From: Sphingobacterium deserti
GTDB taxonomy: Bacteria > Bacteroidota > Bacteroidia > Sphingobacteriales > Sphingobacteriaceae
DNA length: 64,000 bases
Direction: 5' to 3'
Assembly (NCBI RefSeq): GCF_000757725.1
Contig: NZ_JJMU01000022.1
Span: forward strand, 1 to 64,000
Below are positions 38,117 to 64,000 of the stretch, piece by piece (position 1 is the stretch's first letter; the number at the start of each line of letters is the position of its first letter). Below the pieces are notes generated by a model that made no database searches, was not told where the DNA came from, and saw only the letters and a program-made list of their open reading frames with translations. The position numbers were made by a program, and so were the translations under genes.

Positions 38117-39481
38117 CTAAGCGTCGAGTTGTCGTTTGTCAATAAACGTGATTGGCTTCCGGCTTAACGGATTGAATATAATCTTTTGTAATTCTTCCGC
38201 CCCACGCCACTCTATGCGCGGCGTAACGCGAAGCTTTGCGCGGAAGTGGTCTTTTATATCAGATAGCAGTTCTTCGGACTGATTTTTTGCGCTGATATAA
38301 ACAACAATCTCGTCCGTGCCAATATCATTGCCTAGTATCTCAATAACATGTTGCTCGATTTGCGGGAATCCTGCTAAAAGATCATGCATGGCCGGAGGAT
38401 ATAACGTGGTGCCTTTATACTTAACCATATGCTGTTTACGCCCTTCGACTGGGCCGATACGGTAGGTATTCCGTCCGCAGCCGCAAGGCTCGCTGTAACG
38501 CTTTACCACGTCACCGGTCTTGAACCGCAGCAATGGAACTCCCTGAATACCCAGCGTGGTGATCACTAACTCGCCGCTCTCGCCATCGGGGACGGGATTT
38601 TCAAACTCGTCAAGCACTTCGGTAATGATTAGATCCTCGTGCACATGTCCGCCCTGAAAAAATTCACATTCGGTAAATGCAGCCCCCATTTCTGTAGAAG
38701 CATAAGTGGAATGTAGTTGTATTGGCCATTTTTCTTGAATACGCTTCGTCAAGACGGTGTCTTGAAGATGCTGGTCGCGAAGAGACTCGCCGATGCAGAG
38801 CACACGCTCAACACTACTATTACGATAGTCTATACCGTGCTGTTCTGCGTATTCAATCATCTTCAGCAGAAAAGACGGAACGGCAATCAGAAAACGCGGC
38901 TTATACTGCAAAATAGAATCCCACTGCATCTGTGGAACACCAGATCCCACACGCAAAATGCCTGCTCCCAGCTTACGTAGGCCTAAAAAATAAGCCAGTC
39001 CGGCCATAAATCTTCTATCCATTGTTGTCATAAGCTGCACAATGTCTCCTTTTTGAATCCCTATTGTTCGAAAGGAACGACTTTCGTTGTAGGCTAAACG
39101 CTCCAAATCGTGTTCTGTAAGCCCAAAGGAAACGGGGCGCCCTAAAGTTCCCGATGTGGAGCAATAATCAATCACCTCGCTAGCATCCACACAGAAGAAT
39201 TGATCGTTATGCTGCTGAATATCGTCTTTGCTTGTTGTAGGGATACGGGAGAGGTCTTCGAGTGTCTGGATACGCGACACCTCAATCCCGTGCATAGCAA
39301 AAAGCGCCTGGTAATACGGCGATTTCTCGTTCAGATAGTGTAGCTGCCTACGCAACAGTTCTTCCTGATAAGCTTTTATCTCAACAGCTGTTTGCCTCTC
39401 CATCGCCATTTCTTCCATTTTCATTTTTTTTGCTAGCCTGGGCATGAAGCTCAGGATTTTTATCAAAAACCCGCTAAACAC
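38117..39481 (-). CDS. AMP-forming acyl/aryl ligase (PaaK-like), pigment cluster
   Basis: A protein of about 430-454 residues from the adenylate-forming superfamily, phenylacetate-CoA ligase branch. Motifs are VIDYCSTSGTLGRPVSF (phosphate-binding loop), STYASTEMGAAFTE, LLRFKTGDVVKRY, and a cysteine pair in EPCGCGRN typical of PaaK-type enzymes. Such enzymes activate aromatic or acyl acids as AMP esters and load them on CoA or ACP. As the last gene of the flexirubin-type set, it is a candidate for activating 4-coumarate. The start is uncertain: the longest frame opens with GTG at 39481, and ATGs at 39445, 39424 or 39418 are likelier. A 63-base gap separates it from the oxidoreductase gene. Confidence 0.8.
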   Translation of the reverse strand: MFSGFLIKILSFMPRLAKKMKMEEMAMERQTAVEIKAYQEELLRRQLHYLNEKSPYYQALFAMHGIEVSRIQTLEDLSRIPTTSKDDIQQHNDQFFCVDASEVIDYCSTSGTLGRPVSFGLTEHDLERLAYNESRSFRTIGIQKGDIVQLMTTMDRRFMAGLAYFLGLRKLGAGILRVGSGVPQMQWDSILQYKPRFLIAVPSFLLKMIEYAEQHGIDYRNSSVERVLCIGESLRDQHLQDTVLTKRIQEKWPIQLHSTYASTEMGAAFTECEFFQGGHVHEDLIITEVLDEFENPVPDGESGELVITTLGIQGVPLLRFKTGDVVKRYSEPCGCGRNTYRIGPVEGRKQHMVKYKGTTLYPPAMHDLLAGFPQIEQHVIEILGNDIGTDEIVVYISAKNQSEELLSDIKDHFRAKLRVTPRIEWRGAEELQKIIFNPLSRKPITFIDKRQLDA

Positions 39482-39544
39482 ATGCTGCGTGAAGATATAA
39501 AAATCTTCTTATATACATCATACCAAAAATCTCCGTGCGCATAA

Positions 39545-41089
39545 TTACATATCTATTTCGCCATTTGTTACTGCTTTGATTTTTTTCAATAGATATGACT
39601 TTCCCAATATCGCTGAACAGGTTTCCAAAGCGCCCACCGTGACGCCGAGTATCCCATGCATATACACAGCATGGCCTGCCATATAGAGGTTTTCTATTTT
39701 TGTTTTAGGGGATATAAAGGTCTTTAACGGGTCATTTACGTCCTTTTCATGGCCATATAAATTTCCCTTATGCACACCAATGTAATCCCGATAAGATAAG
39801 GGTGTTGAGATGTACTGCTGGGCAACACTTTCGCTCAGGCCCGGCACAAAGCCTTTGGCTTTATTCAACAATTGTTGTGCTTTGTTCTCCTTAAATTCAT
39901 CATAGCTTCTGCCCCGCCAACTAGGGCTCACCACGGTATTGAAACTATGCTCCCATGCTTTCACCTCGTCGAAATGCATATAGGTAAGGATTGTCACCGT
40001 ATCGGCGTAATCAGGCTCCGCCGGATCTGCCGTCATGGACAGCATAAACATGTTCGGCCAATCTATTTGTTCGTAGCGCGTGGCTCTCCACACGGAAGCG
40101 ATGCTCGCATGATAATACAGGTTTTGTGCTTGATATGGCAGTTCTTTCGGTTTGAGGACCAGATGTAAACTAAAGCAAGATGTGGTAACTGGCAGGTTCT
40201 GAATACGGTCAAAATAGCTGCTTCTGAAATGAGATCTTCCGATGAGCTGCAACGCACGCTTAGGATCGATGTTCATCACAAATAGATCTGCATTAATGCG
40301 GTTCCCACATTGTGTGGTCACGCTCGTAATTTTTCCTTGGTCCAACTCCACAGATAAAACTTCCTCCCGTTTGAAAGCCATTCCACCGAGTTTCCGCAAT
40401 TCTTTAACAAGCAGTTTGCTGATTTGGCTTCCGCCGACTTCGCAACGATATGCACTAAGCAAGTAAGAGTTTACAGCAAGCGCATGCACATAAAAAGGCG
40501 TTTTATCGTCATCTCCAGCGTATAAAAAGTTATTCCCAATCAACACCGCACGCAGTGTCTCATTTTTTGTCAACTCCTCCATATAAGCTTTCACGCTCTG
40601 CTGCATGACCGCTGATTTATACCCTTCTCCATCTTCTACATAATATAATGGAAAGGCATGGCAGGTATATTGCAAATCTTCAACGTACTGAATAAGCGTA
40701 TCGCGCTCAGACGGAAAGTAAGCGGCAAGGGCATCTATAAAATCGGCGTAGCCCTGAGCAATGGGATAGCGAATAGGCGTGTCGCCAAATACAACATGGT
40801 CAAAAACGACAGGCATCTGCTTGATTTGCAAATGCGGCATAATGCCCAAATAAGAAAAATACTGGTAGAGATTTTGTCCGGGAGCAAGTCCGCCGATGTA
40901 GTGTACACCTGTATCAAATAGCTTTTTGTTACGAGCGAAAGTCTGCAGGTTTCCACCAAACTGGTTGTTTTTTTCCAGTACACATACTCGCTTACCCTCT
41001 TTCGCTAACGTGACCGCCGTGACCAAGCCACCCAAGCCGCTACCAACGATGACGACATCATACTTCTCTTGATCCGGATTGTTTTTCAT
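39545..41089 (-). CDS. CrtI-like FAD/NAD(P)-dependent oxidoreductase, pigment cluster
   Basis: A 514-residue flavoprotein of the phytoene desaturase / carotenoid isomerase family. The dinucleotide-binding fold is DVVIVGSGLGGLVTAVTLAKEGKRVCVLEKN, followed by FGGNLQTFARNKKLFDTGVHYIGGL. The C-terminal FAD segment is NLYMAGHAVYMHGILGVTVGALET. It may desaturate, reduce or isomerise the polyene chain; the reaction is not established. Its ATG lies 32 bases inside the 3' end of the MMPL exporter gene, so translation is coupled. Confidence 0.85.
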   Translation of the reverse strand: MKNNPDQEKYDVVIVGSGLGGLVTAVTLAKEGKRVCVLEKNNQFGGNLQTFARNKKLFDTGVHYIGGLAPGQNLYQYFSYLGIMPHLQIKQMPVVFDHVVFGDTPIRYPIAQGYADFIDALAAYFPSERDTLIQYVEDLQYTCHAFPLYYVEDGEGYKSAVMQQSVKAYMEELTKNETLRAVLIGNNFLYAGDDDKTPFYVHALAVNSYLLSAYRCEVGGSQISKLLVKELRKLGGMAFKREEVLSVELDQGKITSVTTQCGNRINADLFVMNIDPKRALQLIGRSHFRSSYFDRIQNLPVTTSCFSLHLVLKPKELPYQAQNLYYHASIASVWRATRYEQIDWPNMFMLSMTADPAEPDYADTVTILTYMHFDEVKAWEHSFNTVVSPSWRGRSYDEFKENKAQQLLNKAKGFVPGLSESVAQQYISTPLSYRDYIGVHKGNLYGHEKDVNDPLKTFISPKTKIENLYMAGHAVYMHGILGVTVGALETCSAILGKSYLLKKIKAVTNGEIDM

Positions 41090-44000
41090 AGCGTATCAGC
41101 GTCGCATCTAGGCTTACCGATTTCCAGCCCTCGTTTTGTAGCAACGCTTCTTCCTTAAAAGTATATATTTCTTGAAATTTTTCCAATAGAACAATCGGAA
41201 AATTTGATAGATCTGCATCAGGATGTACCACCAATAGCTGTGCATCGCACGCCTCCACAGCTGAAAACTTCACCGGCCGTTGCTGCCTCCAATAGATACT
41301 CTCCGCGACGGAACGCTTCTCCTCGTCTTGAATAAGTCCCTGAATTTTTCGCAAACCATGTTGCAGCGATAGCAGGTAGTCAAAATGTCCGTAGGTATCC
41401 GAGTAGTGGGCAATTTTAATTTGATTGGGAACGAGTGCGCGAAGCGTATGGTAGCACGCCGCATACTGCGCAAAATCTGTCTTTACAGCATCCAAAATAT
41501 CCTCGTCTTTAAAGTAATACGCGAGTAGTATCCTTTTTTTGAAATAACTAGCATCTTCGATCTTGTAACGCCATTCTGGATATTGATTCCGGAAGTAGCG
41601 ATTTATACTTTTGGTGCGACTCGCGTAGCCTTTTCCGAAACGTGGATCGTTTGGCGAAATACGTTCACCAATCACGGGATTGAGGGCGCCCCCAAAAATC
41701 ATGATGTCGCCTTTAGGCAATACATCGCCATTTCCTAATAAATAAACAGGAACTATATCAAGATTAAATTCCTGTGCAAGATAAAATGCTCCTTTATGAA
41801 AACGCTTCACCACATTCGTATACGACCGTGTGCCTTCAGGAAATACAATGAGTGAATAGCCTGCTGCTACTTTATCTTTTAAAACATCCTTCCCGTTTTC
41901 CAAACCTTGACTTACGGGATAGAAGCCTAAAGCTTTTACAGCTCGGCCAAAAATCGGTGAGTTCCAAACCCAATCATTTACTAAAAAAATTCCTTTCGGG
42001 ATAAGCATCCCCAACGACAAGGTGTCTAAAAAAGAGCTGTGGTTTGCTATAATTACCGCTGGCTTGCTAAATGATTCGTTGTATGGATTCCAGATCTTAT
42101 GGGTTGTGCGCGGATCCATATACAAGACGGACTTCATAAAGAGTGCCATTATTTTTCTAAAAGTCTGGTCTTTTCGTTGCGGCGATATGGGCAGAACCAT
42201 TAAAAGTGTCCGACATAAAAACGAAAGAATTATTGTGCCAACACCATAATACACGAAAAAAATGATCGAAAAAAGTAGCGTTGTGATCGTAAAGGGGGAT
42301 TTGCCCTGCTTGGCTCTATTTGATATAAAGAAGCGGAACAGGATCGGGTAAAAGACGAAGGTGATGACCACTGCCGCGAAGACGCCGATAAGGGATACCG
42401 ATGCTATAGATAATAGAGCGGGATGCTTCGCAAATATTAGCGCGCCGATAGCCAGTACCGTCGTCAGTACTGCCAGTAATATAGAGGTTCGGTAGGTTTG
42501 CAATTCATCTTCGCCGGTGCTATACTGCTTTTGTAGCGCCGCCGTCATAAAAATGCTAAAGTCGACACCGTGTCCGAAAACAAGCGTGCACACAATGGCA
42601 CTAAAGATGTTAAACTCCAAACCAAAAAGGCCCATTAGCCCCGCAGTCATCAAACCTGTCAACGCAATAGGGATGGCGCTCAGCAACACCAATTCTACAC
42701 GGCGGAAAAACACCCAAAGGATAAGTAGTACGGCAATGAAGGAGTAGCCGATAAGCCGATTGAAGTCGTCTCGTAACTGCCCTAAGAACCGTTCATTTAG
42801 ATTTTGTCGGTCGATAACTAATACATCATTGTTTTTTTCGACTTCTTTTAAGAATGCATCTCGCTTATCAGGTTCTACCTTTACTAAAGTAGATATCGTG
42901 TAAAAGCCATCCCGAGCAGCAACAAACTCGCTTGCCCCCAAAAAATTAGTTCCCATCAAGCCATCAAACGTCAGCTTTGGCTGCTTGTTGCTAAGGCGTG
43001 CATAGAATTCGTCGTGCATATCTGGTGTGAAGCCATATTGCTGACCGGAGGCAATAAGGTGTGATCGAAGGGTGGAAATCCGCTCTTTTGTCCAAAAAGA
43101 CTCCCAAACTTGGACATGCTTACGTTGGGAGTCTTCAGAAAGCGGCAAGGCTGTCAAACCCGAATAATTTAATACTTCCCCGGCCTTTTGCGCTGCTGCT
43201 AAAGAAAGATGAAGTTGATCGGCCTTCGCGGCTACTTCTTGAAAGCTACCACCAGCGGCCACAAGATAAAGCGACTTGGACGAGGTATTCATGAGGGAAT
43301 CCAGTTTTGCTTCGACTTTCCGCAAATTTTCAGGCATGTAATTCAATGCCGCTAAGTTGTTATTGTAACCCACTCGGCTGCTTGTAAAGACGCTGACGAG
43401 TAATAGCACGATACAGGTCACGATAAGCGGTTTGTTCCGTTCGAACGAAAATGCGGCAATCTTATCGATCAGCGAATTATATCGCAGTTCCTTCTTTGGT
43501 CGGTAGAGGTGCGGAATTAACAGCAATGTAAATAGGGAAGATGAGAAAATGCAGATCGATGCGAATATGCCGAGATCAATAAGTGCCGACGAGTGAACAA
43601 AAAGCAGGCAGATAAAGGCTACTGCATTGGTGGCGCCGCTCATCAACAATGGCCGTGTCAGCTCCTTGTATAGCGCCTTGACATCTGCAGATTTCTTGAA
43701 ATGCGTAAGCACATGCAGGGTATAATCGATCGTAATTCCCACCAGCACGGCGGCGATACTTAGTGATATTGCAGAGATAACAGGTTTATATAAGTACAGG
43801 CAGGCCAATGCAAAGGCGACGGAAAAAATTGTTGGTATAAATACCAGGATAGGGATGTATATCTTTCTGTAGAAAAACACCAATAAGACCATAAGAACAG
43901 CCGTAGATATGAGTACTGTCGTGGTAATATCATGTTTGATTTGTTTGGCATTTGCCACGGCGACAAAGGTGGAACCATAGTAAGCTATGGATTGTCCCTC

Positions 44001-44726
44001 AAATTTCCTTTCTAGGCTTTCTCGAAGTGACTCGAGGAAGGTCACAAACTTTGTATTGTGCTCCGTGTCGGCACCTTGAAAAATAGGGTCTAGAAAGAGC
44101 AAAATTTTACTGCTGTCTTTGCTGGCCACGTAGCCATCAAGAAGGATAAAATGTTCGCCTATACCTTGGCGTCTTAGCTTTTCCAACGCCAAAAAGCCTA
44201 CCCCCAAGGGATCTTTTTGTACAAAGCGCCCTGTGACGAAGCCTGTAGGCGATATTAAGGCGCGATAGTTTGCCGCCGTCCGGTGCGCTATGGAGTCGGG
44301 TTGTAAACGCCCTTCTATCGTCAGATACGTTGCTGTATCTAAGAAAAACGGCAGATTTCGGTATAAAAAATCGTAGCTTTCTTCCATCTCATCTTGGCCG
44401 ACTTTTCCCGAGATACCTTTCACAAACGTGCTATCGTTCGATAAGGAATCTACGAACAAGCCTGCCATCGCTGAAAGGTTGTTGGTATGCGATAAAGGGA
44501 GCCTTTCGAAAATGACCGTAATTTTATCGGAAAAATTGAGTTGTTTCAACGCTCTGGAAAGATCGTCCGAATCTTCATTTTTTGGAAGTATCTGCGTGAT
44601 ATCTTCTTCAAAGCGAATCTGCGCAGCCAATAGGCTGCAGCCCATCAAAAAGACAAGCGCACAAATCCCGGAAAGAACCTTACGCCGTTGTACGGCTGCA
44701 TAAATATGGTAAAATACCTTCTCCAT
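41058..44726 (-). CDS. MMPL exporter fused to PlsC-like acyltransferase and a degenerate methyltransferase-like tail
   Basis: A 1222-residue fusion. Residues 1 to about 830 are an RND/MMPL lipid exporter: twelve transmembrane helices in two sets, two large periplasmic loops, and GITIDYTLHVLTHFKKS and FGHGVDFSIFMTAALQK as the paired MMPL motifs. From about 870 to 1070 is a lysophospholipid-type acyltransferase with NHSSFLDTLSLG (HX4D) and FPEGTRSYT. The last ~150 residues look like a methyltransferase domain that has lost its SAM-binding glycines (IKIAHYSDTYGHFDYLLSL where a DIGCGYG motif would be). It probably moves pigment or its lipid precursor across the inner membrane. Start overlaps the preceding stop (TAATG). 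Confidence 0.85.
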   Translation of the reverse strand: MEKVFYHIYAAVQRRKVLSGICALVFLMGCSLLAAQIRFEEDITQILPKNEDSDDLSRALKQLNFSDKITVIFERLPLSHTNNLSAMAGLFVDSLSNDSTFVKGISGKVGQDEMEESYDFLYRNLPFFLDTATYLTIEGRLQPDSIAHRTAANYRALISPTGFVTGRFVQKDPLGVGFLALEKLRRQGIGEHFILLDGYVASKDSSKILLFLDPIFQGADTEHNTKFVTFLESLRESLERKFEGQSIAYYGSTFVAVANAKQIKHDITTTVLISTAVLMVLLVFFYRKIYIPILVFIPTIFSVAFALACLYLYKPVISAISLSIAAVLVGITIDYTLHVLTHFKKSADVKALYKELTRPLLMSGATNAVAFICLLFVHSSALIDLGIFASICIFSSSLFTLLLIPHLYRPKKELRYNSLIDKIAAFSFERNKPLIVTCIVLLLVSVFTSSRVGYNNNLAALNYMPENLRKVEAKLDSLMNTSSKSLYLVAAGGSFQEVAAKADQLHLSLAAAQKAGEVLNYSGLTALPLSEDSQRKHVQVWESFWTKERISTLRSHLIASGQQYGFTPDMHDEFYARLSNKQPKLTFDGLMGTNFLGASEFVAARDGFYTISTLVKVEPDKRDAFLKEVEKNNDVLVIDRQNLNERFLGQLRDDFNRLIGYSFIAVLLILWVFFRRVELVLLSAIPIALTGLMTAGLMGLFGLEFNIFSAIVCTLVFGHGVDFSIFMTAALQKQYSTGEDELQTYRTSILLAVLTTVLAIGALIFAKHPALLSIASVSLIGVFAAVVITFVFYPILFRFFISNRAKQGKSPFTITTLLFSIIFFVYYGVGTIILSFLCRTLLMVLPISPQRKDQTFRKIMALFMKSVLYMDPRTTHKIWNPYNESFSKPAVIIANHSSFLDTLSLGMLIPKGIFLVNDWVWNSPIFGRAVKALGFYPVSQGLENGKDVLKDKVAAGYSLIVFPEGTRSYTNVVKRFHKGAFYLAQEFNLDIVPVYLLGNGDVLPKGDIMIFGGALNPVIGERISPNDPRFGKGYASRTKSINRYFRNQYPEWRYKIEDASYFKKRILLAYYFKDEDILDAVKTDFAQYAACYHTLRALVPNQIKIAHYSDTYGHFDYLLSLQHGLRKIQGLIQDEEKRSVAESIYWRQQRPVKFSAVEACDAQLLVVHPDADLSNFPIVLLEKFQEIYTFKEEALLQNEGWKSVSLDATLIRYEKQSGSREV

Positions 44727-45907
44727 TATCGGCTTGAAATCGTACGTTGCTGATTAACACGCATGAAAAAATAGCTGGAGAAGCCGATCAATAAGGACAT
44801 GCCCGCGGCCAATAAGATGCTGCCAACGATGTATTGCCAAAGGTGGGATTTCACGGTGTCCAATGTGATGCGATCCAAATCCAACGTAGTGTCGGATGGG
44901 TAAAGTAAACCGCCAACAAGCAATGAAGCATAAATAACGACAGGAATAAATGGAGCAAAGCTGATATTGGAGAAAGCGAACGCCAATACTTTATTTAATC
45001 GTAAAAATACCGCCAATGTGATGGTGAGTGCCGTTTGGAAGCCCCATACAGGAGCAATACCCATAAAAACACCAAGGCCTATTGAAAGCGCCTTCTTCTC
45101 TGGGGAGTCCTGACTTCCCAAAATATTCTGTTTAATAAAATCTTTTAGATTTTTTTTTTTGAAGTTTCTAAAAAAGTTACGCGGAAGAATGTAGAAAAAG
45201 GTTAAAAAAACCAGCACGGTGTTCAAGATGCTAATACGCGTAAAATCCTTGAAAGGCCGAAAATGTGAAACACGTTCTGCAGGATCATAGAGCACTTGGA
45301 TAGGAATATTCTTCACCTCAATACCACGCCAGGCCGCCCGCACGATGACCTCTATTTCAAACTCAAATTTATTGGTATAGAACTTCTTGGAAATAGCATG
45401 CAGTGGGTATGCACGAAATCCCGATTGCGTATCTGTAAGTTTTATTCCTGTCTCGAACCAAAACCAAAAATTTGAAAATCGATTGCCAAAGCTGCTTTTA
45501 CGTGGAACCGAGTCGTGATTCATATTTCGGCTACCAATTAATAGTACAGGTTCTGTGGCCTGTTGTAGTGCGTCGTGAAACGCAGGAATATCTGCCGGAA
45601 AGTGCTGCCCGTCAGAATCTATACTAATGGCGTAATCGTACCCCTCTTTTCGCGCGCGTGCGATAGCCGCCCGTAAAGCGGCTCCTTTTCCCTTGTTCTG
45701 CGTAAACGCAATGACATCCAACTGCTTGTACCGAAGAAGAATATTAGCGGTGTTATCTGTAGAACCATCATTGACGACAATAATATTATCTGTGAAAGAA
45801 AGAATACCATCCAAAACGCGCGTAAGCGTTTTCTCATTATTATAGGTAGGTACAATAATGACAACAGCTTGCTCTTTCTTGGATTCTATTACCACTCCCT
45901 CGCTCAT
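44726..45907 (-). CDS. Family 2 glycosyltransferase with C-terminal DUF2062 membrane domain
   Basis: A 393-residue protein. The N-terminal GT-A domain (about 15-240) shows VVIIVPTYNNEKTL, IIVVNDGSTDNT and the metal-binding AISIDSDGQHFP. A C-terminal DUF2062 domain (about 255-385) has GLGVFMGIAPVWGFQTAL and several hydrophobic helices, anchoring it in the inner membrane. This GT2-DUF2062 arrangement resembles dolichyl-phosphate-sugar synthases. It may glycosylate a lipid or the pigment; no product is assigned. Part of the long operon, 8 bases from its neighbour. Confidence 0.85.
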   Translation of the reverse strand: MSEGVVIESKKEQAVVIIVPTYNNEKTLTRVLDGILSFTDNIIVVNDGSTDNTANILLRYKQLDVIAFTQNKGKGAALRAAIARARKEGYDYAISIDSDGQHFPADIPAFHDALQQATEPVLLIGSRNMNHDSVPRKSSFGNRFSNFWFWFETGIKLTDTQSGFRAYPLHAISKKFYTNKFEFEIEVIVRAAWRGIEVKNIPIQVLYDPAERVSHFRPFKDFTRISILNTVLVFLTFFYILPRNFFRNFKKKNLKDFIKQNILGSQDSPEKKALSIGLGVFMGIAPVWGFQTALTITLAVFLRLNKVLAFAFSNISFAPFIPVVIYASLLVGGLLYPSDTTLDLDRITLDTVKSHLWQYIVGSILLAAGMSLLIGFSSYFFMRVNQQRTISSR

Positions 45908-45915
45908 CAGATACG

Positions 45916-46401
45916 CTATTTCGTTAATTTTTGACCATCTTCTGCGGTAAAAAACGTGGATTGCTTAGCATAACGCTTGATTATAGACTTTACTTCCACA
46001 GTTTGTGCGGCATAATGAGCTAATATCAATTGTTTGTCTTCCTGCATATTCATTTTATACTTCAGAATTTTAGGAGAATTTTCTTGTACGGCTAGCCGTA
46101 TCAAACGAAGCTCTATATTGTTCGGTGCTGATTTTATAGCCCCTTCCAATGTCCTTATCCCCTGCGCTACCATCGCGCGCTTTTCGGAACGTTCCTGTTC
46201 ATACCGCGCCTTCAGCGTAAGCGAAGCGCCCTTGTACCCAATAAGCAACGGATCTGTTTCGCGATAGCTGTGCAGCGAATTGTATAGGTTGTCTGTTGCT
46301 GCTTTGGATCCCTTCGCTTCTTCAAAGTTCTTCCTTACAGCAGTTAAGTCTACCGCCCCACTCGATACCATCATTAGAAAAGCTATCAATATCGTTTTCA
46401 T
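45916..46401 (-). CDS. Exported protein of unknown function, pigment cluster
   Basis: A 161-residue protein with a short signal peptide (MKTILIAFLMMVSSGAV). The mature part is helical and rich in Lys, Glu, Ala and Tyr, resembling a single TPR-like helical repeat (LKARYEQERSEKRAMVAQGIR; SAPNNIELRLIRLAVQENSPK). I do not recognise a named family. It lies two bases after the dehydratase-like gene inside the operon, so it is probably a periplasmic accessory protein in pigment transport or assembly. Confidence 0.6.
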   Translation of the reverse strand: MKTILIAFLMMVSSGAVDLTAVRKNFEEAKGSKAATDNLYNSLHSYRETDPLLIGYKGASLTLKARYEQERSEKRAMVAQGIRTLEGAIKSAPNNIELRLIRLAVQENSPKILKYKMNMQEDKQLILAHYAAQTVEVKSIIKRYAKQSTFFTAEDGQKLTK

Positions 46402-51036: not shown

Positions 51037-51293
51037 TACTTGGTACGATTTTCTGCGATGTAGGCCGCCATGGTATCAATCGATTGAAAGATTGATTTAC
51101 CCTGCTTCGGATCAGATAACTTGATGCCGTATTCTTTATCCATCAACACGATCAACTCCAATGCGTCAATAGAATCTAAACCCAAGCCTTCGCCGAATAA
51201 TGGGTCGCTATCGGCAATATCAGCAACAGCGATATCTTCAAGATTCAACACTTCAATGATCTTCCCTTTTAATTCTTCTTTTAACTCTGCCAT
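51036..51293 (-). CDS. Acyl carrier protein 1
   Basis: An 85-residue acidic carrier protein. Ser41 in LGLDSIDALELIVLM takes the phosphopantetheine arm. The four-helix outline and length are standard. It overlaps the ketosynthase start by one base (TAATG), so the pair is translationally linked. Probable carrier for the growing polyene. Confidence 0.93.
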   Translation of the reverse strand: MAELKEELKGKIIEVLNLEDIAVADIADSDPLFGEGLGLDSIDALELIVLMDKEYGIKLSDPKQGKSIFQSIDTMAAYIAENRTK

Positions 51294-56478: not shown

Positions 56479-56882
56479 TAATCGCCTTTATAATTTCTTA
56501 ATTCTTCTATACTAATATCGAATGTGTCCGCATATTTAGCAAGCATTCGATCATTCAATTTGTGGAATACGGACGGCTTAGCATGGCGTCTCACGCGCCA
56601 TTTCCAAAACCCGGTATAATCGGACAACAACTGCCAGTCCATACGTCGCAGCTCCATAAAATATACGATAGGGCTTACCAAACCGTCGCGCACATCTTGC
56701 TGAGCTTTGTCAATACGTTCCTGCAGCACGAGCATTGTTTGATCTTGAACAACAGTTTTTGCATCCCAGCCCGTGCTCAACTGCGTGGTATATTGCCCAT
56801 CTTCATCAAGCGCATAATAGAGCTCCCTCGATCCTTTTTCAAACACCCGCCCATTGTCTTGAGGTACTTCTGATTTTTTCAT
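56478..56882 (-). CDS. Conserved protein of unknown function in the pigment cluster
   Basis: A 134-residue soluble protein, no signal or membrane segment. The middle part is charged and helical (LQERIDKAQQDVRDGLVSPI), followed by an aromatic basic stretch (DYTGFWKWRVRRHAKPSVF) and a C-terminal helix-turn-helix-like end (LAKYADTFDISIEELRNYKG). I do not recognise a family beyond its recurrence in Bacteroidota pigment clusters. It is tightly coupled to the BtrH-like gene, suggesting a shared role. Confidence 0.6.
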   Translation of the reverse strand: MKKSEVPQDNGRVFEKGSRELYYALDEDGQYTTQLSTGWDAKTVVQDQTMLVLQERIDKAQQDVRDGLVSPIVYFMELRRMDWQLLSDYTGFWKWRVRRHAKPSVFHKLNDRMLAKYADTFDISIEELRNYKGD

Positions 56883-56887: not shown

Positions 56888-57349
56888 TTACTGCTTTTTT
56901 AAATATAAATTTATCTCTGCTGTCGACAGTAACTCACTTTCTTGCCTTGCCTGAACGACCATCGTGCAAATGGAGTAATCATCGCCATCAAATTTGGATG
57001 TCAGCGTTGACTCGGTTAAAATCCTTTGGCCAACTAACGGTAGTTTTAGAATGGTCATGTTTTTCACTCCGGAGATAAACCCTATGATTCTCTTGTCAGA
57101 AATCGGGTCATAGTCCGCGCTGTAAAAGCGCTGCCCAACAATGGAAGAACAGGTTTGTGCCATGTTTTCCATTAAACCCACTTCTTGGAAAAAACCGTCT
57201 TCCAAAAAAATATTATCCGACTGAACAACAAAGCTGCAGACCACATGGTTTTCTGAAATATCCAAAATAGAATCAACCATAAGCATGGGCGGCCTATGCG
57301 GAAGAAAATCCTCGATATGAATAAGGGTATTGTATACGTATTCAGCCAT
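56888..57349 (-). CDS. Hot-dog dehydratase (FabZ/ApeP-like)
   Basis: A 153-residue hot-dog protein. DFLPHRPPMLMVDSI and GFFQEVGLMENMAQTCSSIVG form the usual active-site regions, the latter with an acidic residue at the expected place. In aryl-polyene systems a pair of such dehydratases (ApeI and ApeP) acts together on 3-hydroxyacyl-ACP; the next gene encodes the other member. One-base overlap (TAATG) with that gene supports a heterodimer. Confidence 0.85.
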   Translation of the reverse strand: MAEYVYNTLIHIEDFLPHRPPMLMVDSILDISENHVVCSFVVQSDNIFLEDGFFQEVGLMENMAQTCSSIVGQRFYSADYDPISDKRIIGFISGVKNMTILKLPLVGQRILTESTLTSKFDGDDYSICTMVVQARQESELLSTAEINLYLKKQ

Positions 57350-57777
57350 TATGTTCCTGCGATTACCGTCTTCATTTGCGATTTGGCAATGATCACTTCA
57401 TCTAATTTAGTAATTATTTCCACTAAAGTGACACCCATAAATTCCTGAAGGATTTGTACATCCGTGTAAATTCGCTGTCCCACTGCGGGCAAAGCTAAAA
57501 TCTCCACCTGCTGCATGGCGCCTATATACCCTACAGGAGCTGTGTCGCCGCGCAAGTAATATCCATAGCCCGTGTGCAATGCTACAGATTGCGCCATATG
57601 TTCCAATAAACCGCTCTCCACCAATACGTTTTCCTCTACCAGTATATTGGCGGCTTCGACCAGAAAACTTGAGGTAAGATCAGATTCGGAATACGATTCC
57701 AAACTAGATACCATCACCATGGGTGGGCGCTGCGGAATAAGGTTTAGGAGCGTAGGCCCGGTCAACGGCAAGCTCAT
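57349..57777 (-). CDS. Hot-dog dehydratase (ApeI/FabA-like)
   Basis: A 142-residue hot-dog protein with LIPQRPPMVMVSSLE and VESGLLEHMAQSVALHTGYG, keeping the catalytic Glu of LLEHMAQ. It is the partner of the following dehydratase and should produce the trans double bonds of the polyene. The ATG at 57777 overlaps the darB stop (TGATG); the longer frame would begin inside darB and adds 19 unrelated residues. Confidence 0.85.
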   Translation of the reverse strand: MSLPLTGPTLLNLIPQRPPMVMVSSLESYSESDLTSSFLVEAANILVEENVLVESGLLEHMAQSVALHTGYGYYLRGDTAPVGYIGAMQQVEILALPAVGQRIYTDVQILQEFMGVTLVEIITKLDEVIIAKSQMKTVIAGT

Positions 57778-58910
57778 CAGCAAACAGTTAGGTAAGCGTA
57801 AGCATACGTAAATCTGGCACTCTCTGGTACACACAACATGATATGTTGCCCTTTTCTCAATTTGCCACTGCGGAAAAGCTCCTCCAACACCAAATACACT
57901 GATCCAGCGCCAACATTGCCCACATCACGCAAATTCATGTACCATTTACTCCGCTCTATCTCAATACCTGCCTCGGCAAAGCCTTGGTATAAGCCGTCCA
58001 CAAAATATTGTGACGATACATGTGGTAATAGGTAGTCAATATCTGAAGGGCTTATGCCATTTTTTTCCATGGCCAGTTTCATGCTATCGACACCCTTGGC
58101 TAGGATATGCTTATCTAACAGCTTGGTATCCTGCTTCACTGCAAATATCGATTTCGACAGCCATTCCTCTGAGGTATAGTCAGAAAACGATTTCAAGGAA
58201 CCATCTTCGGTTTTATCGCCCCCGGCATACATACACACCTCCAATTCATGAGCGTAAGAGTACCCCTCCATCCAGTCAATCCGAAGAGACATCTCACCTT
58301 TCGGCTCATTCTCTAAAAGGAAAGCTCCCGCTCCATCAGAAAGCATCCACCTCAAAAAATCTTTATTAAAGCCGATAATGGGCTGTTGCTCCAATTGCTT
58401 TAGATTTTCTACTTCTTTGTTAAAATGATCCGCAACCATCCATGAAGACATTCTCTCCGAACCTGTACAAACGGCGTTTTTAGTATTCCCAGATTTTACG
58501 GATAGAAAGCCAAATTTCAGTGCATTCATTCCTGCACAGCAGTTTCCTGCGGCAGAGTTTACTTCCACATTTCGATTTCCCAGAACACCGTGAACCATGA
58601 CAGCGTGCGACGGCATTAAATAATCCGGTGAAGATGTGCCGCAGGATAGTAATTCCATATCTGTAGCTTTAAATTCTTCATCAAACAGCGCCTTGATCGC
58701 TTCTGCGGTCAATTCTGCATTTGTATGCGTGGGTTCGCCGGCTTCTGTTAGTGCATAGTAGCGGGTTTTTATACCGTTATTGCGCAGTACAATTCGTCTG
58801 GCCTTAGATTCGCGGTCATTTATCTTCCCCAAAAAAGCTTCCATGCCATCATTATCAACAGGAGCGTTAGGTAGAAATTTCGCTATTTTATTTATGTAAA
58901 CTTCGTTCAT
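57777..58910 (-). CDS. darB: Dialkylresorcinol ketosynthase DarB (KAS III type)
   Basis: A 377-residue thiolase-fold ketosynthase. The nucleophile is Cys125 (VNSAAGNCCAGMNAL), His is in LLPHVSSQYFVDG and Asn in NLRDVGNVGAGSVYL, the KAS III set. In dialkylresorcinol synthesis DarB joins two beta-keto acyl units and DarA completes the aromatic ring. The pairing here with the adjacent darA (one-base gap) makes this assignment firm. Start ATG 58910. Confidence 0.9.
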   Translation of the reverse strand: MNEVYINKIAKFLPNAPVDNDGMEAFLGKINDRESKARRIVLRNNGIKTRYYALTEAGEPTHTNAELTAEAIKALFDEEFKATDMELLSCGTSSPDYLMPSHAVMVHGVLGNRNVEVNSAAGNCCAGMNALKFGFLSVKSGNTKNAVCTGSERMSSWMVADHFNKEVENLKQLEQQPIIGFNKDFLRWMLSDGAGAFLLENEPKGEMSLRIDWMEGYSYAHELEVCMYAGGDKTEDGSLKSFSDYTSEEWLSKSIFAVKQDTKLLDKHILAKGVDSMKLAMEKNGISPSDIDYLLPHVSSQYFVDGLYQGFAEAGIEIERSKWYMNLRDVGNVGAGSVYLVLEELFRSGKLRKGQHIMLCVPESARFTYAYAYLTVC

Positions 58911-59826: not shown

Positions 59827-60714
59827 TTACTTGCTCCTATTCGATGACCAAAAATCGAAAAAGTTAAACCACTGTAGTGGGTATCGTTCTAACATTTGCT
59901 CCACACTAACTCGGTAGGCATCTAGATAAGACTGTGGATCTCTACGCTTTACGTCCTCGGCGCGCCGTGCATACAGATGATAATGTAAATTCTTTTCTTT
60001 CATCACATACACAAAGATTACCGGCACGGCTAAACGGGAAGCAATGTGAAAAGGGCCTGCCGGAAACGATGCTTCCTTACCCAAAAAGCTACTTTCCAGT
60101 GTCTTCATGCCTTCGAAATATCGATCGCCGGTGAAACATATCAGCTCATTGTTAGACAAAGCATCAGCAATTTCAAACACGTGAGACATATCGTTTTTGA
60201 TATTGATAAATTTCACCGATGATTCGCCGTTTATACCTTGCAGATAATCTTTGATGATCGTCCGCTCTTGATCAACCGTCACCAAATTGATTTGGAAATT
60301 AAAATCAATGTCGGCGAAGAATTTATCGGCTATTTCAAAGTTGCCAACGTGCGCCGATATTAAAATACCACCACGCTTGTCATCCAGCGCATCCTTTAAT
60401 GTTTCAATACCATCAAACTCGTATGTAAAGTGATTCCTTAGTCCTGCGGAAATAGCCACTTTGTCAATAATGGTCTGACCAAACACAAAATACACCCGAT
60501 AAACAGAGCAAAATGCAGTCCAAAAACCGTAGCCCCGGCGGTGGCGAAGGTAATAGTATACAGCTCGGAAACTTTTGGGATTAAAGAGAAAATAATAAAG
60601 GGAAACGAAGAGCAGGAGTGCATATGCAGCCCTGACACCTACCTTTTTTATGAGAAATACAAATATCTTATAGCCTAGGAGTGTTCCTTTAGATTTTCCG
60701 TCCCATTGGCTCAT
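59827..60714 (-). CDS. LpxL/HtrB-like acyltransferase, pigment cluster
   Basis: A 295-residue membrane-bound acyltransferase of the lipid A late-acyltransferase family. A hydrophobic helix lies at about 28-46. The HX4E catalytic motif is at His122-Glu127 (ISAHVGNFEIAD), and GDRYFEG and SFPAGPFHIASRLAVPVIFVY are further family blocks. Such enzymes take acyl chains from ACP onto a hydroxyl. It is located between ACP 2 and darA, so it is the best candidate for joining the ACP-bound aryl-polyene acid to the dialkylresorcinol hydroxyl. That role is inference. Confidence 0.85.
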   Translation of the reverse strand: MSQWDGKSKGTLLGYKIFVFLIKKVGVRAAYALLLFVSLYYFLFNPKSFRAVYYYLRHRRGYGFWTAFCSVYRVYFVFGQTIIDKVAISAGLRNHFTYEFDGIETLKDALDDKRGGILISAHVGNFEIADKFFADIDFNFQINLVTVDQERTIIKDYLQGINGESSVKFINIKNDMSHVFEIADALSNNELICFTGDRYFEGMKTLESSFLGKEASFPAGPFHIASRLAVPVIFVYVMKEKNLHYHLYARRAEDVKRRDPQSYLDAYRVSVEQMLERYPLQWFNFFDFWSSNRSK

Positions 60715-60723: not shown

Positions 60724-60978
60724 TTAGTTTTTTGCCGCTATTTTACGATCTACCACATCATAAAAATCCTGGAATGTCACCATCTCTGCAAAATCAGCTT
60801 CAACGAGCTTTACGCCAAAATTAGACTCTATTATAACAACTAAATCAACATAGTCTAGGCTATCTAGGTCAAGCGATTCTTTCAAAGATGCATCAGGATT
60901 GATAACCTCCTCATCAACCTCAAACTCCTCAATCAATATTTCGTTTATCTTTTGATGTATGCTCACCTTATTATTCAT
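60724..60978 (-). CDS. Acyl carrier protein 2
   Basis: An 84-residue acidic carrier protein with Ser40 in LDLDSLDYVDLVVII for the phosphopantetheine arm. It overlaps the FabB-type ketosynthase gene by 8 bases and lies 9 bases before the LpxL-like gene, so it may present the finished acyl chain to that acyltransferase. Distinct from ACP 1 in sequence. Confidence 0.93.
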   Translation of the reverse strand: MNNKVSIHQKINEILIEEFEVDEEVINPDASLKESLDLDSLDYVDLVVIIESNFGVKLVEADFAEMVTFQDFYDVVDRKIAAKN

Positions 60979-62197
60979 TATTAAATTTCTTGACTACCAA
61001 CGCAGAATTGGTTCCTCCAAATCCGAATGAGTTAGACAAATATATATCAAATTCTTGTTTTATTGTGTGCGAAACAAAATTTATATCTTTCAAATCATCA
61101 TCAGGTTCATCCAAATTGATGGATGGTGCGATAAAGCCATGCTGCATCATAAGTGTCGAATAAACGATCTCTGATGATCCAGCCATCCAGCATTCGTGCC
61201 CCGTCATTGACTTTGTCGAGCTTACGAAAGGTTTACTCCCAAAAACTTCCAATATAGCTTTTGCTTCGTTGGCATCGCCGATTGGCGTAGAAGTAGCATG
61301 CGCATTGATATAATCGACATCTTCCGGTTTTACATTGGCTTGCTCTAGGGCTCTTCGCATTGCCTTCGCCGGTCCCTCGATATTTGGCGTAGATATATGT
61401 CCGCCATTCGAAGAGAAACCATAGCCCAGCACCTCCGCTATAATCGGTGCGCCGCGCGCGACGGCAGACTCATAGCTTTCCAGAATAACGGTTGCCGCTC
61501 CCCCACTTGGTACCAGCCCTGTCCGTTTTTTATCAAACGGTCGCGAGGCTTGCGTAGGGTGATCAATATCTGTTGCAAACACGCCGAGCCCGTCAAAACT
61601 TGCCATAGCGTAGGGATTAATTTCTTGTGCGCCGCCGCAGATAATAAGATCTTGCAATCCTTGCTGGATAAACATAAAACCTAAACCTATAGCATGTGAG
61701 CCGCTTGCGCAGGCTGCACTAATCGTCATATTAACACCAGATAGCCCAAAGATAGTTGCCAAGTTCATGGTGACCGTCGAATTCATTGACTTAAAAATAG
61801 CGCCAGAACCGATCAGCTGTGTATCCTTCTTTTCCCGCGCGATGTCAGTTGCATCAATTACGGCTTTTGACACGCTGTCGTTCCCATAGAGAATGCCCAC
61901 TTCGCGCTTAAGAATACTTTCATCGTCCAAATGCGCATTACGGAGTGCCTCCACTGTGGCCATATAAGCATATTCAGATTCCTCGCCCATGCTTATCCGC
62001 TGTCGCCTACTTAAAACTTTCTTCAGATCAGGGGCGGGTACCATACCGGTTAAAGGCGACTTAAATCCGAAATCTAAGCGCTCCCGGTCAACCACAATCC
62101 CTGACTTTCCATCGAATAGGGACTGCTTAACTGCTTCTAAGTTTGTTCCGATACAGGAATAGATCCCCATCCCCGTAATCACCACGCGCTTATTCAT
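60971..62197 (-). CDS. Beta-ketoacyl-ACP synthase (FabB/FabF type)
   Basis: A 408-residue condensing enzyme with Cys163 (ISAACASGSHAIG), His in INAHATSTPIGD and His in KSMTGHECWMAG. The motif spacing is FabB-like. With FabG directly upstream and an ACP downstream, it forms an elongation module. Two elongation modules in the operon would fit the two chains of a flexirubin (polyene and dialkylresorcinol). Start ATG 62197, 8 bases after the FabG stop. Confidence 0.92.
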   Translation of the reverse strand: MNKRVVITGMGIYSCIGTNLEAVKQSLFDGKSGIVVDRERLDFGFKSPLTGMVPAPDLKKVLSRRQRISMGEESEYAYMATVEALRNAHLDDESILKREVGILYGNDSVSKAVIDATDIAREKKDTQLIGSGAIFKSMNSTVTMNLATIFGLSGVNMTISAACASGSHAIGLGFMFIQQGLQDLIICGGAQEINPYAMASFDGLGVFATDIDHPTQASRPFDKKRTGLVPSGGAATVILESYESAVARGAPIIAEVLGYGFSSNGGHISTPNIEGPAKAMRRALEQANVKPEDVDYINAHATSTPIGDANEAKAILEVFGSKPFVSSTKSMTGHECWMAGSSEIVYSTLMMQHGFIAPSINLDEPDDDLKDINFVSHTIKQEFDIYLSNSFGFGGTNSALVVKKFNNE

Positions 62198-62205: not shown

Positions 62206-62940
62206 TTATGAATAGATTCCACCATTTATATTAATCACCTCGCCTGTGATATATCCTGATTTTTTTGATGCTAAAAAACAGACAAGATCAGCAACTTCTT
62301 CCGCTTCCCCAAAGCGGTTCAGCGGAACCATTTTGGTGAGCTCTTTTTCGTCCATATCTTGCGTCATATCTGTCCGGATAAAGCCCGGCGCTACCGCATT
62401 CACGGTGATGTTACGCTTAGCGACTTCTTGTGCCAATGCTTTCGTAGCGCCAATCACTCCGGCTTTCGCCGCAGAATAGTTTACCTGACCCGCAGTACCC
62501 TTCACGCCCGATATAGACACAATATTGATAATACGACCATACCTGTTACGTAACAGTTTTTGGATAAAAAAGTTTGTGACATTGTAAAAGCCCTGTAGAG
62601 AAATCTGCAAAACGGAAGACCAGTCTTCCGGAGTCATCCACATAAATAGGCCATCTTTCGCAATGCCTGCATTATTAACAATCACTTCCACAATACCATC
62701 CGTATTCTGCTCTGACCAGGTGCCGAGTACATCGGTCACTTCTTTCGCATTGCTCACATCAAATTTCAGAAGTTCTCCAGAACCGCCTGCGGCCTGAATA
62801 TAAGCCAAAGTCTCTGTTGCTGCTGCATCATTTCCTTTGTAATTTATAAGCACGTGATAGCCTAGTTCGATAGCTAATTTCTGACAAACTGCACGACCTA
62901 TGCCACGCGATCCCCCTGTTACCAATGCACTTTTCATCAT
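62206..62940 (-). CDS. 3-oxoacyl-ACP reductase (FabG type), pigment cluster
   Basis: A 244-residue short-chain dehydrogenase. The NADP loop is ALVTGGSRGIGRAVC, NNAGIAKDGLF follows, the catalytic set is in VSISGVKG...YSAAKAGVIG (Ser, Tyr, Lys), and PGFIRTDMT is the C-terminal loop. It reduces 3-ketoacyl-ACP in each elongation round. Two in-frame ATGs (62940, 62937); the first overlaps the TAA of the ammonia-lyase gene (TAATG). Cluster FabG is specific to pigment synthesis by context. Confidence 0.93.
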   Translation of the reverse strand: MMKSALVTGGSRGIGRAVCQKLAIELGYHVLINYKGNDAAATETLAYIQAAGGSGELLKFDVSNAKEVTDVLGTWSEQNTDGIVEVIVNNAGIAKDGLFMWMTPEDWSSVLQISLQGFYNVTNFFIQKLLRNRYGRIINIVSISGVKGTAGQVNYSAAKAGVIGATKALAQEVAKRNITVNAVAPGFIRTDMTQDMDEKELTKMVPLNRFGEAEEVADLVCFLASKKSGYITGEVININGGIYS

Positions 62941-64000
62941 TATTTCATCAAATATTCTTTTACCTGCTGTATTGCTGGGTAAAGCGGTTTATCATCAGAA
63001 AACGCAGGAATGATATTTCTAACATCATTATAAACCATTTTCGTTTTTGAAGATACAAAATTTTGATAATTTAATATATCAATGGCTTGACATACTGATA
63101 TCATTTGAATAGCTAAAACTTCAAAGGCATTGACAATGACTTTGTGCGCAATTATAGCGGCATTTGTTCCCATACTGACGATATCCTGATTATCATTATT
63201 ATTCGGGATGCTATGGACGTACATCGAAGTAGAAAGCGTTTGATTTTCAGCTGTGGTGGAAGTAGCAGTAAATTGAGCGCCCTGCATGCCGAAATTGAAG
63301 CCGAGCTTGCCCATATTCACGAACGGCGGCAAAATTTCATTTATCTTGCTATTCATCAAATAATTTAGCTGGCGTTCAGACAACATCGTCAAACGGGTAA
63401 CAGCAAGCTTCAATTTATCCATTTCCAGCGAAATATAATCACCGTGGAAATTCCCACCGTGGTATACGTTTTTATCATCGACAGAAATAATAGGGTTATC
63501 ACTAACAGAGTTCAATTCGTCTTCTAGAATTTGCCCTGCTTGTGTTATGGTTTCCAATACCGGACCCAAAATCTGCGGTACACAGCGCAAAGAATAGTAC
63601 TCCTGCACTTTGTCTTTAAAAATTTCCTCCTGGTTATTTCCCGAATATAGATCTTCCTCTCGCTTTTTAATAAGCGCGCTATCCGCTAGATGTTCACGCA
63701 TAGCCGCAGCTACCGCTTGCTGCCCTTGGTGAAGTTTTACCCCATTGAGTGTGCTAGAGTAGTGGTCATCATGTGCCTTTACAACTTCATTCATTGTGCA
63801 AGCTAGCCAGATAGACCAATCATAAAGTTTTCGTGCATAAAAGAAATTTACCAAACCAATCCCCGTCATTACAGAGGTTCCGTTAATTAGGGAAAGCCCT
63901 TCGCGAACCACAACTTCGATCGGCGTTAAATTTAATTCTTCAAAAACTGCCGAGGTAAGTTTTCGCTCGCCCTTATACAATACTTCGCCTTCGCCGATTA
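62940..64000 (-). CDS. Aromatic amino acid ammonia-lyase (HAL/TAL family), 5' end outside the window
   Basis: The C-terminal ~353 residues of a histidine/tyrosine ammonia-lyase; the frame is open to the right edge, so the N-terminus and the MIO-forming Ala-Ser-Gly are not seen. Visible motifs are VREGLSLINGTSVMTG, NPIISVDDKNVYHGGNFHGD and QDIVSMGTNAAI. Full enzymes are about 500 residues. In flexirubin and aryl-polyene clusters this enzyme is a tyrosine ammonia-lyase making 4-coumarate as the starter unit. The substrate-selectivity residues are in the missing part, so TAL rather than HAL is inferred from context. Confidence 0.88.
   Translation of the reverse strand, partial: IGEGEVLYKGERKLTSAVFEELNLTPIEVVVREGLSLINGTSVMTGIGLVNFFYARKLYDWSIWLACTMNEVVKAHDDHYSSTLNGVKLHQGQQAVAAAMREHLADSALIKKREEDLYSGNNQEEIFKDKVQEYYSLRCVPQILGPVLETITQAGQILEDELNSVSDNPIISVDDKNVYHGGNFHGDYISLEMDKLKLAVTRLTMLSERQLNYLMNSKINEILPPFVNMGKLGFNFGMQGAQFTATSTTAENQTLSTSMYVHSIPNNNDNQDIVSMGTNAAIIAHKVIVNAFEVLAIQMISVCQAIDILNYQNFVSSKTKMVYNDVRNIIPAFSDDKPLYPAIQQVKEYLMK

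Follow-up and report, generated by a model that had tools for sequence, protein, structure and literature searches.

Flexirubin is a yellow-orange bacterial pigment that serves as a chemotaxonomic marker, commonly by way of a KOH colour test. In Flavobacterium johnsoniae UW101 (BGC0000838) its genes form a single large cluster, reported as 37 kb, that encloses darA/darB and carries lolA2/lolB2 in the operon (parts of PMC3992019 and PMC11885536); mutating darB in that organism abolishes the pigment (parts of PMC3992019). The Chitinophaga pinensis flxA-flxY cluster (BGC0000839) has its TAL and CoA ligase genes at opposite ends and also holds five KS-like genes and Lol and exporter genes; the dar locus is separate in the genome, the flexirubin (C43H54O4, m/z 634.40) is ring-methylated, and activity has been shown for FlxA, FlxY and DarAB (parts of PMC3992019). 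Azoarcus sp. BH72 spreads its genes over several separate loci, among them a dar locus that encodes DarA and DarB together with a BtrH-like protein and an ABC transporter, and an arcuflavin cluster with halogenase, LolA and exporter genes beside the polyene genes; its starter is made by a chorismate-utilising enzyme and not by tyrosine ammonia-lyase (parts of PMC3949708). LolA2/LolB2 are always found in flexirubin-type loci, in the relevant parts of the survey PMC11885536.

The Sphingobacterium deserti locus described here, likened to those of F. johnsoniae and C. pinensis by description, resembles the former in being one cluster, about 26.3 kb long, that encloses darA/darB and lolA2/lolB2, and the latter in having FlxA and FlxY at opposite ends, five KS-like genes and Lol and exporter genes; it shares with Azoarcus the DarA-like, DarB, BtrH-related, ABC, LolA, exporter and halogenase-like elements. 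The window is the whole stretch of 64,000 nucleotides that was analysed, and reading the open frames in it and in its contig gives a run of 28 minus-strand genes, 38117-64457. The preliminary description correctly placed the operon on the minus strand from 38117; its 27 genes are those complete in the window, and FlxA, truncated at the window end (64000) and whole in the contig, brings the run to 28. Two gaps of 63 and 53 nt interrupt it, all other neighbours overlapping or lying no more than 10 nt apart. Fractions of 41 in the list refer to clusters in a survey of 93 Sphingobacterium genomes by profile cut-offs for FlxY, DarB and FlxA, in which FlxY exceeded its cut-off 41 times; paired bit values are score/cut-off.

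38117..39481, minus: FlxY, acyl-CoA (4-coumarate-CoA) ligase; NCBIfam NF053551, 691/520 bits
39545..41089, minus: CrtI/CrtD-like FAD oxidoreductase; Pfam Amino_oxidase, NAD_binding_8; 41/41 clusters
41058..44726, minus: MMPL/RND exporter fused to glycerolipid-type acyltransferase; Pfam MMPL, Acyltransferase; 41/41 clusters
44726..45907, minus: GT2 glycosyltransferase fused to DUF2062; Pfam; 41/41 clusters
45916..46401, minus: hyp161, unannotated, 161 aa, DAR-linked; no family over cut-off
46404..46784, minus: DH3, FabA/FabZ-type dehydratase; Pfam FabA 34.8/23 bits; 41/41 clusters
46795..47421, minus: LolB2 of the flexirubin locus, an outer-membrane acceptor of lipoproteins; NCBIfam NF053540, 136/60 bits
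47396..48022, minus: LolA2, periplasmic carrier; NCBIfam NF053544, 227/125 bits
48012..48785, minus: polysaccharide deacetylase-like; NCBIfam PdaB/PgdA-type matches, all under cut-off
48779..49867, minus: KS362, ketosynthase homologue lacking Cys-His-His (chain-length-factor-like); Pfam ketoacyl-synt, alignment
49837..51036, minus: KS399, ketosynthase with Cys-His-His; FabF-type matches under cut-offs, alignment
51036..51293, minus: ACP85, acyl carrier protein; NF006617 86/70 bits, PP-binding
51347..51946, minus: KSn199, only the N-terminal half of a ketosynthase; Ketoacyl-synt_2 19.6 bits, under cut-off 25, alignment
51940..53043, minus: KS367, ketosynthase with Cys-His-His; FabF-type matches under cut-offs, alignment
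53040..53486, minus: 4HBT-type thioesterase; TIGR00051 70.2/68.7 bits
53461..54777, minus: ABC-2 exporter permease (DAR cassette); matches under cut-off
54734..55486, minus: ABC exporter ATPase (DAR cassette); drrA-like, under cut-off
55483..56478, minus: DarH, BtrH-related acyltransferase (DAR cassette); NF053550 508/300 bits, BtrH_N, DUF4872
56478..56882, minus: DarG (DAR cassette); NF053545 186/170 bits
56888..57349, minus: DH2, FabZ-like, LPHR motif kept (DAR cassette); FabZ matches under cut-off
57349..57834, minus: DH1, classed as FabZ-like from its similarity to DH2, IPQR replacing LPHR (polyene branch); no family match; 41/41 clusters; translation may really begin at an ATG downstream of the GTG
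57777..58910, minus: DarB, dialkylresorcinol ketosynthase/cyclase; NF053539 657/550 bits, StlD (5gk0) 382 bits
58912..59817, minus: DarA-like flavodoxin-fold protein (DAR aromatase by position); Flavodoxin_4 21.1 bits, under cut-off 24
59827..60714, minus: lauroyl-type acyltransferase; Pfam Lip_A_acyltrans 43.9/22.3 bits
60724..60978, minus: ACP84, acyl carrier protein; PP-binding
60971..62197, minus: KS408, ketosynthase with Cys-His-His; FabB/FabF-type matches under cut-offs, alignment
62206..62940, minus: FlxB, SDR ketoreductase; NF053542 407/340 bits
62940..64000 (full gene, contig 62940-64457), minus: FlxA, tyrosine ammonia-lyase, 505 aa; NF053541 854/700 bits (full protein)

Directly beyond the window, a divergent halogenase-like FAD enzyme gene (contig 64585-65841) is counted as part of the locus and extends it to 27.7 kb.

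The enzymes that the preliminary description had listed are all there: the ammonia-lyase, a FabG-type reductase, condensing enzymes (five KS-like proteins, four of full and one of half length), two ACPs, dehydratases, DarB, a DarA-like flavodoxin, acyltransferases, and ABC and MMPL exporters. Its flexirubin-type assignment is supported by eight proteins (FlxA, FlxB, FlxY, DarB, DarG, DarH, LolA2 and LolB2) that exceed curated NCBIfam cut-offs, and by synteny. The 'polyene dehydratase pair' that it made part of the signature needs amending: there are three dehydratase-like genes, and the adjacent two part company across the genus, DH1 occurring in every cluster with the polyene genes and DH2 only with the DAR genes. 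DarB matches, along its entire length, a ketosynthase of solved structure, StlD. Alignment shows a GASGD stretch in FlxA and Cys-His-His in three ketosynthases, and the KS, ACP and FlxA motifs inspected are all intact. The DarA-like protein exceeds no family cut-off in NCBIfam and Pfam scans and is assigned by position and synteny, being 48-51% identical to the gene beside darB in three Flavobacteriaceae; as a query against annotated plasmids it found three matches at 27-28%, all annotated as hypothetical protein. Among 14 control genomes the FlxA and FlxY models each exceeded the cut-off in one (Bacteroides ihuae for FlxA), so these two proteins alone are insufficient proof of flexirubin; DarB exceeded its cut-off in none of the 14.

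The Sphingobacterium paludis locus has the same order and content over the stretches compared, at 72-100% identity, with a DarB 93% identical to the one here and one identical ACP. Three Flavobacteriaceae loci, from an uncultured member (L005), Ulvibacter antarcticus (L006) and Lacinutrix himadriensis (L007), keep the order over the stretches compared at 34-74% identity per gene and share the divergent FAD enzyme and hyp161; they differ in having a methyltransferase between two KS genes (3/3) and, in L005 and L007 (L006 being unread there), a WG-repeat gene after flxA. On these sequence grounds, chance as the source of the gene set is excluded by the curated-cut-off scores and the synteny with S. 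paludis and the three Flavobacteriaceae loci. Family scores, Flavobacteriaceae gene order and presence across the genus together argue for a further member of the known flexirubin type, and we put the probability of a complete flexirubin-type cluster, with two branches and an export line, at about 93%. Against it count the lack, in the cluster here, of the Flavobacteriaceae methyltransferase and of a gene, C45-type as judged by eye, that 12 of the 22 DAR-bearing clusters have.

The 93 genomes comprise 22 with the DAR branch, 19 with the polyene branch only, 51 without either FlxY or DarB over cut-off, and an incomplete one with DarB and FlxA but without FlxY; a FlxA tree took in 39 of the 41 clusters. 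Eight genes (darA, darB, DH2, darG, darH, the ABC permease and ATPase, and hyp161) occur in all 22 DAR-bearing clusters and in none of the 19 others. The DAR-bearing clusters share one genomic site, whose flanks lie no more than 4.7 kb apart in 44 of the 50 other genomes where they could be read. In G046 and G076 the flanks are 21-23 kb apart; a decayed cluster in G046 was considered and rejected, the gap there being free of flx and dar genes, and the part of the G076 gap that was read holds only an end of gltX. Outside the cluster, a DarB-like fusion occurs in three of 11 class-B genomes (G028, G057 and G092) at 380-386 bits, under cut-off. LolB2 went undetected in 10 of 22 DAR-bearing and five of 11 class-B clusters, perhaps because of fast divergence.

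The pathway that we infer from these similarities, with the DarH ester role, export and the unmethylated ring included, would run as follows in this strain. FlxA would deaminate tyrosine to 4-coumarate, which FlxY would then activate, and the aryl polyene would be extended by three intact ketosynthases with a chain-length-factor-like partner, the two ACPs, FlxB, DH1 and DH3. DarB would condense two fatty-acid-type intermediates and cyclise them to a ring, which the DarA-like protein would aromatise. DarH, the BtrH-related acyltransferase, would most likely esterify the polyene half to the DAR half, although PMC3992019 puts forward another enzyme, FlxW, for the ester step, which counts against this role. 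The ABC exporter, the MMPL-acyltransferase fusion, LolA2 and LolB2 would export the product to the outer membrane.

That the cluster yields only an aryl polyene of the xanthomonadin/APE kind, with no DAR ester, is what one would expect of the 19 genus clusters that have none of the DAR set; here it is very improbable, since all eight DAR-linked genes have open frames and DarB, DarG and DarH exceed their cut-offs, and the class of aryl polyene clusters without DAR is defined by the lack of genes that are all present in this one. The suggestion that the cluster is silent, or is decaying, draws some colour from its being missing at this site in many relatives, but is improbable for a locus with open reading frames in 28 of 28 genes, with every inspected KS, ACP and FlxA motif intact and with an ACP identical to that of S. 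paludis. Nor is the organism misplaced, as had also been proposed: the strain is a Sphingobacterium near S. paludis, the closest named relative found, which belongs to the same GTDB genus, and the cluster is common in that genus, FlxY exceeding its cut-off in 41 of the 93 genomes. The gene set is ordinary for the genus.

For the complete flexirubin-type cluster there is a refinement that we rate at slightly better than even, namely that the product is a DAR-polyene whose ring decoration is unlike that of C. pinensis flexirubin, unmethylated and possibly halogenated. The Flavobacteriaceae-type methyltransferase is in none of the 41 Sphingobacterium clusters and nowhere in this genome at E 0.001, and at E 1e-20 this query recovers homologues from 36 of the 295 class genomes; one hidden in the larger gaps of relatives was sought by eye among the gap genes of 10 genomes and rejected, these resembling a sugar-isomerase-like protein, a BlaI/BlaR-like pair, an HU-like protein and other ORFs. 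The lack of this enzyme leads us to predict an unmethylated flexirubin, which with the chain lengths of C. pinensis would have m/z 620.39, or about 34 more with one chlorine, but an unrelated enzyme encoded elsewhere could supply the methyl group. The divergent FAD enzyme exceeds the Pfam Trp_halogenase cut-off (74.8/21 bits), matches solved flavin-dependent halogenases and has WLWVIP and FLDPVFSSG stretches; against halogenation, the solved structure that it matches best (3nix, 452 bits) belongs to an uncharacterised flavoprotein, it falls far below the CmlS halogenase cut-off (158.8/900 bits), and this putative halogenase occurs in all 41 clusters. Methylation and chlorination vary among known flexirubins (parts of PMC3992019), and the methyltransferase is not counted as defining flexirubin because known derivatives vary in methylation. 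A partial literature search found no description of an unmethylated, possibly halogenated flexirubin from Sphingobacterium.

Natural deletions set the DAR and polyene genes apart from each other and single out one unstudied gene, hyp161. It is coinherited with darA/darB despite a distance of 11-13 kb and is present in all three Flavobacteriaceae records; its absence from the 19 DAR-less genomes refers to a search within their loci, a 916-base gap at the usual place in G014 being unread. The protein has a hydrophobic N-terminus and is all-alpha (structure model mean pLDDT 89.7); family scans of it gave nothing over cut-off, those of 25 homologues gave no family common to more than two members, and a PDB fold search gave no match at E <=0.001. 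We tentatively propose, at a little under even odds, that hyp161 serves the DAR or ester branch as a dedicated component, exported and all-helical, while the methyltransferase-less remainder of the unit makes an unmethylated, possibly halogenated flexirubin.

The KOH colour shift probably comes from the hydroxyphenyl polyene, and DAR-less strains could therefore test positive without making flexirubin.

There is good support for regarding the Sphingobacterium deserti pigment cluster as ordinary in kind, useful for the natural dissection that its relatives provide and notable for one orphan gene. It is a minus-strand run of 28 genes extending from 38117 to 64457 (gene calls and contig, the latter of 133,866 bases, of which the window takes 1-64000). 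The preliminary description of a 27-gene operon had the start right; the count is 28, made up of 27 genes complete in the window and FlxA, completed by the contig. Only two intergenic gaps (63 and 53 nt) are found, the remaining neighbors overlapping or lying no more than 10 nt apart, so that the run probably forms a single transcription unit. The cluster end, its other end and the genes singled out below are:

35226-38102, SNF2-type helicase gene (named by eye), tail to tail with the cluster end
45916-46401, minus strand, hyp161 (unannotated 161-aa protein), 7 kb away from the dialkylresorcinol (DAR) block at its closest gene, with darB and darA at 11-13 kb
57349-57834, minus strand, DH1 (dehydratase-like)
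contig 64585-65841, divergent FAD enzyme at the other end of the cluster, followed by gltX (named by eye)
15233-15880 of fetched locus L003, phosphopantetheinyl transferase gene (Pfam ACPS, 51/25 bits), ~11 kb beyond flxA

Identities were called with NCBIfam models, given here as score/cut-off in bits: full-length FlxA 854/700, FlxY 691/520, DarB 657/550, DarH 508/300, FlxB 407/340, LolA2 227/125, DarG 186/170 and LolB2 136/60. In 14 control genomes FlxY and FlxA each pass the cut-off once and DarB never does. The solved ketosynthase StlD aligns end to end with DarB (382 bits). The DarA-like protein passes no family model's cut-off, and its putative name comes from place and synteny. An alignment of the five ketosynthase-like proteins shows Cys-His-His, which we take to be the ketosynthase motif, kept in KS408, KS399 and KS367; KS362 has lost all three residues, presumably as in a chain-length factor, and KSn199 is an N-terminal half. 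Five putative ketosynthases were also counted in C. pinensis (PMC3992019, in part).

A cluster in Sphingobacteriia is to be expected, since flexirubin clusters have been reported from every Bacteroidetes class but Saprospiria, five out of six (available text of PMC9248904). In a class-wide sample FlxY passes its cut-off in 46/295 genomes; among 93 Sphingobacterium genomes the counts are 41 for FlxY, 42 for FlxA and 23 for DarB, with FlxY and DarB together in 22 and one genome (G077, 88% complete) having DarB and FlxA without FlxY. Six loci came out of a genome-contig scan with DarB as query: that of S. paludis (93% identity), three of Flavobacteriaceae (63-67%) and two of uncultured Bacteroidetes (52 and 59%). 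Within the fetched stretches, gene order, the divergent FAD enzyme included, is kept in S. paludis and the Flavobacteriaceae. The partly available literature on Sphingobacterium with flexirubin or aryl polyene yielded no statement on whether the genus has flexirubin or lacks it; carotenoids are mentioned for two of its species (PMC9559291, in part).

The clusters of all 41 FlxY-bearing Sphingobacterium genomes, scored for each gene at E 0.001, fall into three classes. Class A (n=22, S. deserti included) has DAR and polyene genes; class B (n=11) has polyene genes elsewhere in the genome and class C (n=8) has them in at least two separate blocks, both without DAR genes. DarA, DarB, DH2, DarG, DarH and the ABC ATPase and permease are present in 22/22 class A clusters and in none of class B (0/11) or C (0/8). 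Present in 41/41 are FlxA, FlxB, KS408, both ACPs, the lauroyl-type acyltransferase, DH1, KSn199, KS399, KS362, the deacetylase, LolA2, DH3, GT2, MMPL-AT, the CrtI-like protein, FlxY and the FAD enzyme. The 4HBT-type thioesterase and KS367 occur in all of classes A and B and in 5/8 of class C, being not found in the fetched stretches of three genomes, in one of which (G043) the contig stops at that point. LolB2 turned up in 12/22, 6/11 and 8/8 of classes A, B and C; LolA2/LolB2 are described as always present in flexirubin-type loci (available text of PMC11885536).

In full clusters DH1 has DarB on one side and DH2 on the other, and it is retained where those neighbors are missing; it therefore goes with the polyene, and DH2 (22/22 with DAR, 0/19 without) with DAR. 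The two dehydratases are thus not the polyene pair for which they had been taken. DH1 has IPQR at the position of LPHR in the FabZ-like DH2. Of the 21 copies examined in class A, 18 have the Gln (17 by pattern, S. deserti by eye; three unresolved), as do 8/8 of class C; six class B copies keep His.

A FlxA tree of 39 of the 41 Sphingobacterium rows and three outgroups unites class C in a single clade (100/99) next to lineages of class A, and the other side of the midpoint holds class B, the Flavobacteriaceae and two class A genomes (G052, G053). On these sequences, at least two separate origins of DAR-less clusters are likely. Loss of DAR genes is favored over gain but not proven, because the root is not fixed.

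Both flanking genes, SNF2 and gltX, could be placed in 93/93 genomes. In 20/22 of class A they share a contig and are separated by 27.8-55.7 kb that includes cluster genes; in 11/11 of class B they share one at 1.2-4.1 kb, and in 8/8 of class C they are on different contigs. Of the 51 genomes in which FlxY and DarB both stay under cut-off, 39 have the two genes on one contig, 33 at 0.09-4.7 kb, two at ~22 kb and four at >200 kb. These spacings mark the class A cluster as a discrete unit occupying one site and missing from many relatives.

The orphan, hyp161, is present in 22/22 class A and 0/19 class B and C clusters at E 0.001, a split that reflects a few lineages and not 41 independent events; at E 0.01 the fetched loci give the same 22 and no further Sphingobacterium. 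All three Flavobacteriaceae records have it (37-42% identity), that of Ulvibacter in the equivalent position, flanked by DH3 and GT2, and 19 columns are invariant across 25 aligned sequences. Pfam and NCBIfam scans put no family over its cut-off, and a fold search matched no solved structure at E 0.001. The predicted model is all-helical (mean pLDDT 89.7) with a hydrophobic, low-confidence N-terminus, which suggests export. We propose a role for hyp161 in the DAR or ester branch, or in export of that branch.

Activities of FlxA, FlxY and DarAB and a darB mutant phenotype are known from other work (PMC3992019, in part). DarH would form the ester between the halves, to judge from its kinship to BtrH, its strict DAR linkage and the BtrH-like gene that the Azoarcus dar locus likewise has (PMC3949708, in part); FlxW has been proposed instead (available text of PMC3992019). 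In 3/3 Flavobacteriaceae loci a methyltransferase gene, named by eye, separates KS367 from KSn199. Those two ketosynthase genes overlap in S. deserti, whose genome gave no methyltransferase homologue at E 0.001, and 0/41 Sphingobacterium clusters have one. The same query finds homologues in 36/295 class genomes at E 1e-20; cross-reading the two scans places one in 29 of the 46 FlxY-bearing genomes and none in 17. Since just 7/29 share a contig with FlxY at a distance of 30 kb or less, many may be unrelated to flexirubin. The divergent FAD enzyme matches Pfam Trp_halogenase (74.8/21 bits) and solved halogenases (E ~1e-34); it is far below the CmlS cut-off (158.8/900 bits), and among solved structures it is closest to 3nix (452 bits), an uncharacterised protein. 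Flexirubins vary in methylation and chlorination (PMC3992019), and the Azoarcus polyene cluster lists a halogenase (PMC3949708; both in part). Among 20 papers listed for this topic, one (PMC11187115) contains the words "flexirubin" and "halogenase", once each. The missing methyltransferase, the halogenase match, the known variation and the Azoarcus precedent together predict a pigment that is unmethylated and perhaps halogenated.

Relatives' clusters hold four further kinds of gene, each named by eye. A P-loop kinase-like (zeta-toxin-like) gene is inserted between KSn199 and ACP85 in genome G029 (L031:13466-14050). A BlaI/BlaR-like pair lies between lolA2 and DH3 in loci L051 and L063 (G090:C5:209945-212000; G033:C11:226921-228955), the BlaR-like protein ending in tandem FNSPEWHAHIAKIEENARKVEEK-type repeats. 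A WG-repeat-like gene separates flxA and flxB in an uncultured member of the Flavobacteriaceae and in Lacinutrix himadriensis (L005:4624-5751; L007:4625-5752) and occurs in 9/11 of class B, 0/22 of A and 0/8 of C. A C45-type acyltransferase/hydrolase gene between the CrtI-like gene and flxY (L039:16938-18611 and relatives) occurs in 12/22, 11/11 and 0/8 of classes A, B and C; it is missing from the S. deserti cluster and was not found in that genome. Separately, DarB/StlD-like stretches in larger open frames of 627-641 aa score 376-386 bits, under the DarB cut-off, at G057:C1:1570180, G092:C1:2023787, G012:C9:28561, G035:C1:2820812, G028:C31:56829, G020:C15:36590 and G059:C1:2821549; possibly these are a fused DAR-type synthase outside flexirubin loci.
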